Shown here: in pieces, positions 22,811 to 26,588 of the stretch
How positions within the stretch are numbered: the first letter of the stretch is position 1
Layout of the letters: every line of letters starts with the position of its first letter
From: Halorussus salinus
GTDB taxonomy: Archaea > Halobacteriota > Halobacteria > Halobacteriales > Haladaptataceae
Assembly: GCF_004765815.2 (NCBI RefSeq)
Contig: NZ_ML974127.1
Span: 660,927 to 724,926 of the forward strand
Direction: 5' to 3'
DNA: 64,000 nt
Translations under genes and position numbers: made by a program
Notes under the pieces: model-generated
Databases searched by the model: none
What the model was told of the DNA's origin: nothing
The model's input: the letters and a program-made list of their open reading frames with translations, nothing else

Positions 22811-24053
22811 GCTCGAACACCTCCATCGAGGGCGCGGCGTCCAAGTCGCGCTTGTCGCTCTCCTCGATTACCGTGTCGAGGTCCTTGTCGCCCCGGCCCG
22901 AGACGTTGACGACCACGAGGTCGCCCAACTCGTCGCGCGTGTCGCCGAGCGCCGCCTCTTCGAGGTACGCCAGCGCGTGGCTGGATTCGAGCGCGGGGAT
23001 GATGCCCTCGGTCTTCGACAGTCTGTGGAACGCTTCGAGCGCGGCGTCGTCGCCGACGTTGACCGGCGTGACTCGCCCCTCGTCGGCGAGGTAGGCCAGT
23101 TCCGGGCCGACGCCCGAGTAGTCGAGTCCCGCGCTCACGCTGTGGGATTCGAGAATCTGACCGTCCGGATTCTGGAGGAGTTTCGTTCTGGCTCCGTGCA
23201 ACACGCCGTCCTCGCCGGTCGAGAGCGACGCCGAGTGGGGTGCCAGCCCGTTCTCCTCGTCGATGGTGAGGGCGGAGCCACCGGCCTCGACGGCCACGAG
23301 GTCCACGCTCTCGTCGCCGACGAACTCGTGGAACGTGCCCATCGTGTTCGACCCGCCGCCGGCGCAGGCGACCACGCTGTCGGGGAGCCGTCCCGCCTTC
23401 TCCCGAATCTGCTCGCGGGCCTCCTCGGAGATGACCGACTGGAAGTCCCGGACCATCCGCGGGAAGGGGTGAGGACCCACGATGGAACCGATGACGTAGT
23501 GGGTGTCCTCGACGTTGGTCGCCCAGTCGCGCATCGTCTCGTTGATGGCCTCCTTGAGCGTGCCCGACCCGATGTCCACGGGGTTGACCGCGGCGTCGTG
23601 GAGGCGCATCCGGAAGACGTTCGGGCGCTGGCGGTTGATGTCGGTCCGGCCCATGTAAATCTCACAATCCACGTCGAGGTACGCGCAGGCCATCGCGGTC
23701 GCGGTGCCGTGCTGGCCCGCGCCGGTCTCGGCGACGATGCGCTCTTTGCCCATGTACTTCGCCAGCAGAACTTGGCCGAGCGCGTTGTTCAGCTTGTGCG
23801 CACCGCCGTGGAGCAGGTCCTCGCGCTTGAGGTACACCTCGCGGTCGTACCGCTCGCTCAGGCGGTCCGCGCGCTGGAGCGGCGTGGGCCGCCCGCCGAA
23901 GTCCCGCAGGCGCTCGCGGAACTCGTCCATGAACCCCTCCTCGTTGTCGAGGACGTATCGCTCGTAGGCGTCTGTCAACTCCTCGATGGCGGGCATCAAC
24001 GCCTCGGGGACGTACTGACCGCCGTACTCGCCGAACTTGGATTCGCTACTCAT
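22800..24053 (-). CDS. trpB: Tryptophan synthase beta subunit
   Basis: 417 residues; the PLP enzyme joins indole and serine. The Schiff-base lysine lies in [15 protein letters not shown], the phosphate-binding loop is [15 protein letters not shown], and [12 protein letters not shown] is the family's glycine-rich segment. The N-terminus [17 protein letters not shown] marks the TrpB1 type, which partners TrpA. The start ATG overlaps the trpC stop by 4 nt and its 3' end overlaps trpA, so trpCBA is a tightly coupled operon. Confidence 0.96.
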
Positions 24054-24874
24054 GTCTGTGTCTCCTCGGTCGCTGTGTTCTCGGTCCGCGTCTCCTCGGT
24101 CGCTCTCTCCTCGGCCGCCGCCCGCGTCAGTTCGCGCGTGTTCTCGGTCACGTTTCCGTCCATAATCGCGCTCCCGACCAGCAGGCCGTCCGCGCCCGCT
24201 TCGACCATCCGGCGGGCGTCGTCGGGCGTGGCGATACCGCTCTCGGCGACCAGCGTCACGTCGTCGGGCGCTTGGGGCGCGACGCTCTCGAAGGTTTCGA
24301 GGTCCACCTCCAGTCGGGCCAAATCGCGGTTGTTGACGCCGACGATTTCGGCCCCGGCGTCGATGGCCGCCCGCAGTTCCTCCTCGTCGTGGACCTCCAC
24401 GAGCGGCTGAAAGCCGCGTTCCTTCGCGGCCGCCACGAGGTCCGAGAGGTCGTCGCCGACGAACCGAGCGATGAGCAAGAGTACGTCGGCCTCGACCGTA
24501 TCGAGTTGGGCCTCGCGCACGAGGAAATCCTTCCGGAGGACCGGCACGTCCACCGCCTCGCGGATGCGCCGCAGGTTCTCGGGCGACCCGCCGAAGTGGT
24601 CGGGTTCCGTGAGGACCGAGAGGGCGGCCGCGCCGCCTTCGACCATCTCCTCGGCGAGCGCCACGGGGTCTTCGTCGCGGGTGCCCTCCGTGGTCGGACT
24701 CGTCGGCTTCACCTCTGCGATGACTGGCGCGCGCCCGTCGGTCTCGGCGTCGGCCAGCGCCGCGGGGAGCGACCGCGCGTCCACCGAGACCGGCCCCCGC
24801 TCGGGGTCGCCGCGGGCCTCGGCAGACCGAAGGATGGCGGCGACTGCGGGCGCGAGTTCGTCGCTATCGTTCAT
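24050..24874 (-). CDS. trpC: Indole-3-glycerol phosphate synthase
   Basis: The ATG at 24874 gives 274 residues ([15 protein letters not shown]). A longer frame exists, but it runs into the divergent promoter. TIM-barrel motifs are [14 protein letters not shown] (phosphate and catalytic Lys), LRKDFLV with the catalytic Lys, [17 protein letters not shown] and TLVAESGI. It closes the indole ring of carboxyphenylaminodeoxyribulose phosphate. First gene of trpCBA. A TATA-like CTTATGTAC lies about 30 bp upstream, in the 97-bp gap shared with the MGMT-like gene. Confidence 0.94.
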
Positions 24875-24971
24875 CGTTGTACACCAACGGACGGAATTGT
24901 ACATAAGACTTGCGCTGGGGTCGCGGTCCGCCCACGGAATCTTCAAGTCCGGACCGCCCGAACCGAGGGGC

Positions 24972-25463
24972 ATGGACGACATTGGCGACGCGGTCGGAGA
25001 CGACGGCGTCACCGGCATCTTCGCTCGCGAGTCGTCGTATCTCGACCGCTACGTCCAACTCGGCGTAGCGAGCGGTCGGGTCCTCAGCGTCTCGTTCCCC
25101 GACACTCCCGACGAGGAGGCCCGCGAGGACCACGACCTCCTCGACCGCATCTTCGACTACCTCGACGGCATCGAGGACGAGGAGTTCTCGGACGTGGATA
25201 TCGCGCTCACGGTTCCGACCGACCAGCGCCGCGTGTTGGAGCGCGTCCGCGAGATTCCCTACGGCGACCAGATAAACGTCGAGACGCTAGCCCGGATGAC
25301 CAGCGGCATCGACCACACCGACGACGAGGACCTGAACCTCGTCCGGACCGCGCTGGACGAGAACCCGGCCCCGCTCCTGATTCCGGACCACCGCGTCCGG
25401 GACGGACCGAGCGCCGCCCCGGCCCCCGTCGAGCAGAAGCTGCGCTCGCTCGAAGGGCTGTGA
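24972..25463 (+). CDS. MGMT/Ada C-terminal-like protein lacking the catalytic cysteine
   Basis: The ATG at 24972 gives 163 residues. The C-terminal part follows the O6-alkylguanine-DNA alkyltransferase fold: [18 protein letters not shown], then [20 protein letters not shown]. In active enzymes the last motif is PCHRV. Here residue 139 is Asp, so suicidal alkyl transfer by the usual Cys is impossible. Alkyltransferase-like proteins (ATL, with Trp or Ala at this position) bind lesions and call excision repair, and this could be an analogous lesion sensor. It is transcribed divergently from trpC and lies upstream of mfnA. Confidence 0.8.
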
Positions 25464-25538: not shown

Positions 25539-26588
25539 ATGGAGCGCGAGCCGCAGAACTTCGGGCGCGTCCTCTCGTCGATGTGTACCGTGCCCCACCC
25601 CGACGCCCGCGAGGCCGCCGAGCGGTTCCTCGCGGACAACCCCGGCGACCCGACGACGTATCCAGCCGTCGCCGAACTGGAGCGCGAGGCCGTCGGTCTC
25701 CTCGGCGAGATGACCGGTTTGGACGACCCGCAGGGCTACGTCGCCAGCGGCGGGACCGAGGCCAACTTACAGGCGGTCCGGGCGGCCCGCAATCTCTCGG
25801 ACTGCGACGACCCGAACATCGTCGCGCCTGAGAGCGCCCACTTCAGCTTCCAGAAGGCCGCCGACGTGTTGGACGTGGAGTTGCGACTCGCACCCACCGA
25901 CGACGACCGGCGCGCGGACCTCGGGGCGGTCCGGCGACTCGCCGACGACGAGACCGCGCTGATAGCCGGGGTGGCCGGAACCACCGAGTACGGTCGCGTG
26001 GACCCGATTCCGGACCTCGGCGCGGTCGCCCGCGAGGTGGGCGCGCTCTTCCACGTGGACGCCGCGTGGGGCGGGTTCGTCCTCCCGTTCACCGACCACG
26101 AGTGGGACTTCGCGGACGCGCCGGTCGATACGATGGCCATCGACCCCCACAAGATGGGGCGCGCGCCGGTCCCCGCGGGCGGCTTTCTCGCCCGCGAGGA
26201 GAAGACCCTCGACGCGCTCGCCGTGGACACGCCGTATCTCGAATCGACCTCGCAGGCGACCCTGACCGGCACCCGAAGCGGCGCTGGCGTTGCGGGCGCG
26301 CGGGCCGCGATGGACGCTCTCTGGCGCGAGGGCTACCGCGAGAACTACGAGCGCGGGCAGGCCAACGCCGAGTGGGTCGCCGCCGAACTCGAATCGCGGG
26401 GCTACGAGGTGGTCGAACCCGTCCTCCCGCTGGTCGCGGCCGATATTCCGCGCGAGGAGATTTCGGCGCTCCAATCGACTGGGTGGCGGGTCTCGCCCAC
26501 CGCGACCGGCGAGTTGCGAATCGTCTGTATGCCCCACGTCACCCGCGAGATGCTGACGGAGTTCCTCGCGGACCTCGATTCGGTCTGA
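25539..26588 (+). CDS. mfnA: L-tyrosine/L-aspartate decarboxylase family protein
   Basis: 349 residues of a fold-type I PLP decarboxylase: [44 protein letters not shown] and the PLP lysine in [16 protein letters not shown]. In archaea without methanofuran this family makes beta-alanine from aspartate for CoA synthesis (known for Thermococcus). A pantoate kinase gene at 39513 in this window belongs to the same pathway. The 75-bp gap to the MGMT-like gene allows co-transcription. Confidence 0.92.

Follow-up and report, generated by a model that had tools for sequence, protein, structure and literature searches.

A putative pseudo-alkyltransferase of haloarchaea carries aspartate at the acceptor-cysteine position of MGMT

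Two functional classes of proteins built on the O6-alkylguanine transferase fold are described, the suicide enzymes themselves (AGT/MGMT/Ogt, e.g. Sulfolobus solfataricus OGT, 4zyd) and the ATLs (S. pombe Atl1, 3gva, and E. coli ATL), in which the acceptor Cys is absent. According to PMC10779285, ATLs keep the base-flipping Tyr and the Arg finger, while the Asn hinge and the N-terminal domain are missing. The window, by which we mean the whole 64,000-nucleotide stretch of Halorussus salinus DNA analysed here, contains a gene that is recognised solely by its MGMT domain, yet judged by its sequence the product is no Cys alkyltransferase (Table 1). This product, the PDHR protein, and its family share with AGT/MGMT/Ogt proteins a predicted two-domain fold over residues 14-163, the Asn hinge and the active-site His, Arg and Glu, but they have neither the acceptor Cys nor the base-flipping Tyr nor the GGYSGG wing, and their recognition helix is acidic. 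With ATLs they share the absence of the acceptor Cys and a C-terminal domain that superposes, but they differ from them in carrying Asp rather than Trp at the acceptor position, in possessing the Asn hinge and the N-terminal domain, and in lacking the Tyr. By its residues the PDHR family would fit neither the working AGTs nor the typical ATLs and would be a separate "pseudo-AGT", core to haloarchaea; we place it within the AGT/ATL superfamily as a further variant, outside both functional classes. Among the listed titles and abstract openings of open-access papers, none deals with a relative of MGMT of the Asp type, and the terms "alkyltransferase" and "ogt" occur neither in the Haloferax genome paper PMC2841640 nor in the available portion of the Haloferax repair review PMC7776575.

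Table 1. Coordinates of the PDHR protein gene, its functional sites and its divergent neighbour in the window (human residue numbers refer to MGMT)
Feature	Position	Strand	Remarks
PDHR protein gene (MGMT relative with no acceptor Cys)	24972..25463	+	163 aa plus stop
Asp139 (GAC), site of the alkyl-acceptor Cys (human C145)	25386..25388	+	D in 139/151 family proteins
Asn131, "Asn hinge" (human N137)	25362..25364	+	139/139 Asp proteins
His140-Arg141 (human H146-R147)	25389..25394	+	His 139/139, Arg 138/139
Glu161 (human E172)	25452..25454	+	139/139 Asp proteins
Val103, base-flipping Tyr site of AGTs/ATLs (human Y114)	25278..25280	+	Tyr 0/139
Recognition helix of the HTH, residues 118-130	25323..25361	+	acidic; inserted acidic turn precedes
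Short segment replacing the GxLGGYSGG wing loop	25398..25427	+	from alignments
Possible promoter box GGAATCTTCAAG	24936..24947	+	25-36 bp 5' of ATG; presumed function
trpC, divergent neighbour (then trpB, trpA)	24050..24874	-	NCBIfam NF041303, 431 bits

The open reading frame runs through without an internal stop and encodes both IPYGDQ and LLIPDHRV, the latter replacing PCHRV, so that the first-pass annotation of this DNA was right about the location, the frame and PDHR standing for PCHR. It went too far in calling the alkyltransferase signature intact, as the PDHR protein reaches 28.8 bits against Pfam PF01035 (cut-off 27) and only 20.7 bits against NCBIfam ogt (cut-off 46.4), and neither the base-flipping Tyr nor the GGYSGG wing has survived. 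The homology of the family to MGMT is real in profile comparisons. PF01035 is matched at E<=0.01 by 41 of the 41 members of alignment A2, the family aligns with canonical MGMTs at an hhalign probability of 99.1, and the family profile matches 45 PDB sequences (best E 1.1e-6), which are by name MGMTs, SNAP-tags or tag-bearing fusions, apart from a few long fusions such as 9dzy_B, whose listed names mention no tag. Alignment A2 is composed of 41 Asp-type rows, seven picked S/T/A rows having been excluded; it has 10 invariant columns, counting Asp139, which is invariant by choice, and eight of them fall within residues 127-161. The closest genus-named relatives of the PDHR protein are from Halorussus, at 83-85% identity.

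The PDHR protein is predicted to adopt the full two-domain alkyltransferase fold, including the N-terminal domain. An AlphaFold2 model computed from 26 rows (the window protein, seven haloarchaeal loci and 18 MGMT-like proteins of viral contigs) has a pLDDT of 90.5 and a pTM of 0.83; an earlier model from eight close rows without canonical MGMTs was poor (pLDDT 46). The best structural match is the AGT 4zyd_A (Z 17.8, rmsd 1.9, 139 residues), and the ATL 3gva_A superposes on the C-terminal domain (Z 8.8, 74 residues). Among the Foldseek/VIA-align matches listed, high scores belong to AGTs and ATLs only, other chains having Z <=4.0. Because canonical MGMT rows were part of the alignment, this likeness is partly imposed, and the model is better taken as support for homology than as a test of it. 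Helix H118-129 of the model corresponds to the recognition helix of the PDHR protein.

To describe the acceptor position across the family, we read this column in 152 distinct aligned proteins, comprising 151 family proteins and the canonical paralogue of the window's genome (L001). The 151 family proteins have D in 139, S in 6, A in 2, T in 2 and C in 2 (three Cys if L001 is included), and Trp in none. The protein is a variant distinct from the Trp-type ATLs, as had been proposed. Both Cys-bearing proteins belong to families f10 and f12; once the four f10/f12 proteins are set apart, the remaining 147, the Asp clade, have D 139, S 4, A 2 and T 2. A sequencing error at residue 139, one of two objections raised by the first-pass annotation, is excluded, because 139 of the 151 distinct proteins of the family have Asp there (three of these 139 rows are partial), encoded by GAC in 109 and by GAT in 30. 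The other objection, an alternative Cys elsewhere in the fold, falls away for the window protein, as not one of its 163 residues is Cys; the same holds for 112 of the 139 Asp proteins, the other 27 carrying Cys somewhere. On its encoded residues, then, alkyl acceptance by Cys is excluded in the PDHR protein, and the earlier statement that it cannot be a suicide enzyme as known stands.

Asn131, His140, Arg141 and Glu161, which by alignment make up the rest of the AGT active-site network, are kept nearly invariant, a single Arg141 being the only departure among the 139 Asp proteins (Table 1). The eight S/T/A members of the Asp clade retain the His, Arg and Glu in 8/8 and the Asn in 7/8; that they keep the network also fits a purely structural role of these four residues. 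An apparent covariation of Arg143 with Asp139 (98/139 vs 1/8, Fisher p 0.0017) was dropped, as other columns did equally well or better and the test ignores kinship.

The base-flipping Tyr and the wing loop of AGTs have been lost. At the column of the base-flipping Tyr, the 139 Asp proteins have V in 106, L in 19 and other residues in the rest, with Tyr in none. The Arg-finger column, occupied by Asn122 in the window protein, has E 30, N 20, I 19, D 16, R 15 and others, and canonical L001 has Val there; Arg125, conserved (84%) and located three residues past this column, might act as a displaced finger. Alignments of the PDHR family show no GGY(F)xGG wing loop. Over the 14 residues before Asn131, the mean net charge is -3.3 in the Asp proteins (138 of 139), compared with +0.1 in canonical haloarchaeal MGMTs (9 of 10) and +3.2 in other archaeal MGMTs (23 of 30), rows without the motif having been dropped from each group. 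Acidity is a general trait of haloarchaeal proteins, and the wider HTH region is net negative in canonical haloarchaeal MGMTs too (-2.8 vs -5.0 in the Asp family). The same 14 residues have a charge of -4.0 in the four f10/f12 proteins, two of which carry Cys; since their helix is acidic too, the acidic helix seems to be older than the loss of Cys. That the DNA-flipping side appears from these alignments to be lost, while the Asn/His/Arg/Glu network is nearly invariant, is a larger fact than the Asp alone.

A canonical MGMT with PCHRV is encoded on another contig of the same genome (G000:C3, L001) and is 32% identical to the PDHR protein over 119 aligned positions; the acceptor Cys is present in all 10 canonical loci read (L001, L163-L171). 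The suggestion that Asp is a charge fitted to high salt is not supported: this same-genome protein keeps PCHRV, and in 8 of 147 Asp-clade members the residue is uncharged (S/T/A). When L001 is used as the query, a match at E<=1e-12 is found in 70 of 194 class genomes and none in 124, so that how haloarchaea handle O6-alkylguanine becomes a direct and tractable question. A PF01035 search of 40 chosen genomes recovered a canonical MGMT in 10, Asp-clade proteins only in 22, f10/f12 proteins in 4 and no match in 4; the 22 include one genome whose copy is broken (G348) and two with further matches far below the family cut-off.

The PDHR family itself is nearly universal: 390 of the 391 class genomes gave a match, G370 (88% complete) being the exception, as did 55 of 59 relatives, with the other four 59-78% complete; both counts take in the Cys/Ser proteins of f10 and f12. 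Within the genus, the median dN/dS is 0.21 (153 pairs, 18 proteins). Beyond haloarchaea, 69 of 80 genomes of the phylum yield a match to the family profile, and the best 30 of these loci, which were fetched, all have Cys at the acceptor position. A search for the Asp family in viral contigs gave one pattern match and zero confirmed relatives. Two genomes have irregular copies, a broken Asp gene in G348 (L149) and a second, partial copy in G108 (L153).

Phylogenetic analysis with the window protein places the Asp clade (100/94) together with the Cys/Ser forms of f10/f12 at 100/99, and canonical haloarchaeal MGMTs form a separate clade (100/99). The f10/f12 proteins group together at 93/75 in this tree and at 98/90 in another tree with more rows, and the family aligns with them at an hhalign probability of 99.9 over 145 columns. 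These homologues (L076, L077, L078 and L152, from four genomes) are a sister lineage with the same acidic recognition helix, but they have Cys (2) or Ser (2) at the acceptor position and keep both the Tyr and a GGF/GDY/DGY-type wing. The family resembles a natural series, with a suicide repair enzyme giving up its hold on DNA and its acceptor around a fixed pocket.

Gene order offers a second view of this descent. Divergent trp genes are the upstream neighbours in 124 of 160 loci, about nine of these 160 being duplicates of a single place; of the remainder, 13 have LonB, a protease or NMNAT (4 of these are f10, with TBP), three have TBP alone, and 20 have none of these within the flanks. Among six wider regions from other lineages, three f4 regions (of four f4) have the Asp gene near a Rce1/CPBP-like protease-LonB-NMNAT run. 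All four f10/f12 genes adjoin a TBP gene, with NMNAT nearby in L152, L160 and L161 and LonB in L160. Since the root of the tree is arbitrary and serves for drawing only, vertical descent is what we infer, and synteny agrees with it in part. A TIGR01177/Trm14-like methyltransferase-type gene was also observed near the Cys/Ser homologue in L159, L160 and L161 (f10/f12).

We propose, with moderate confidence, that the PDHR protein is a pseudo-alkyltransferase, most likely a non-suicide binding protein that uses the former alkyl pocket, a reading we favour because few parts of the protein are as conserved as its pocket network. An archaeal O6-alkylguanine transferase would have lost its wing, its base-flipping Tyr and its acceptor Cys, where Asp139 or sometimes Ser/Thr/Ala now stands, and would carry an acidic recognition helix, while the predicted fold of two domains and the network of Asn131, His140, Arg141 and Glu161 hardly changed. 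To judge from these residues, alkyl removal and base flipping as in AGT or ATL have most likely both been lost from the pseudo-AGT; AGT-style flipping by the PDHR protein is unlikely. The former alkyl pocket would most likely hold a small ligand, the nature of which is a guess, or a partner protein, with Asp139 as a polar contact in the pocket. As a tentative extension of this proposal, the AGT fold may have turned once, within haloarchaea, to another non-suicide chemistry or ligand, giving a class-wide core gene with an Asn-Asp-His-Glu pocket and a target other than alkylated DNA bases.

The main rival to a binding protein is an ATL-like damage sensor, which would bind O6-alkylguanine DNA in an open, acceptor-less pocket and hand it over to UvrABC nucleotide excision repair; it ranks as such because most sampled haloarchaea seem to be without another MGMT. 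Where no canonical match exists, as in 124 of 194 haloarchaea, something else may have to handle O6-alkylguanine, and the Asp-clade protein is the sole MGMT-like match in 22 of the 40 chosen genomes (one copy being the broken one). Further, the HTH of PF01035 is still recognisable, the substitutes D, S, T and A are all small, so that the pocket may stay open, and UvrABC is present in Haloferax (PMC7776575). What makes such a sensor doubtful is that the PDHR family is the opposite of ATLs on the Tyr, the hinge and the N-terminal domain, and that its recognition helix is acidic.

Asp139 could alternatively be catalytic, as the nucleophile or general base of an Asp-His-Glu arrangement in a turnover enzyme, working either on DNA or on a small molecule, in which the alkyl group would pass to Asp as an ester and then be released by water. 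Asp, His and Glu do fall where AGTs have their Cys-His-Glu triad, all three conserved, and dehalogenases form alkyl esters by means of Asp-His-Glu. However, carboxylate attack on O6-alkylguanine is chemically unlikely, and if Asp is ancestral in the clade, it was replaced by S, T or A at least five separate times with the His, Arg and Glu kept, which renders turnover improbable. Of similarly low probability is a trp regulator or metabolite sensor, that is, an HTH protein put to a new use at the divergent trpCBA promoter. Divergent layouts are typical of local regulators, the trp genes are so placed in 124 of 160 loci, and a paired TGTACA-like element precedes trpC; but this element remains by trpC where about 1.1 kb intervenes (L004, L009, L012), other lineages have the gene near Rce1/CPBP-LonB-NMNAT or TBP, and the acidic recognition helix again argues against such a role. 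A functionless relic in slow decay, as might be read from the broken copy in one genome (G348, L149) and from drift of the acceptor position in a few lineages, is very improbable in view of 390 of 391 genomes, a dN/dS of 0.21 and nearly invariant pocket residues.

Several features of the immediate neighbourhood may be noted in their own right. Downstream of the gene, at 25539-26588 (+), lies a tyrosine decarboxylase gene, MfnA (NCBIfam TIGR03812, 372 bits), which is probably not a functional partner of the PDHR protein, because just 6 of 161 loci, a figure that counts duplicates of one place, have it downstream. A TT[CG]AA[GT] box occurs 18-50 bp upstream of the gene in 21 of the 23 loci listed and in only 80 of 160 overall, counts that have no chance control. 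About three same-genus genomes (L004, L009, L012) carry an insertion of some 1.1 kb, seemingly of extra genes, between trpC and the Asp gene, and the TGTACA sites remain with trpC across this insert. Two such elements precede trpC in the window (24878-24883 and 24898-24903), and TGTACA is what we take to be the TRP box of TrpY. Paired TGTACA-like sites, with <=1 mismatch each and 18-22 bp apart, are found beside trpC in 116 of the 124 trp-linked loci, again with no chance control; exact TGTACA is present in at least two copies in 39 of the 124, in one copy in 64 and is missing in 21. TrpY of M. thermautotrophicus is described as binding "TRP boxes" in PMC6737238, and the TGTACA pair is a possible candidate for a haloarchaeal trp operator.
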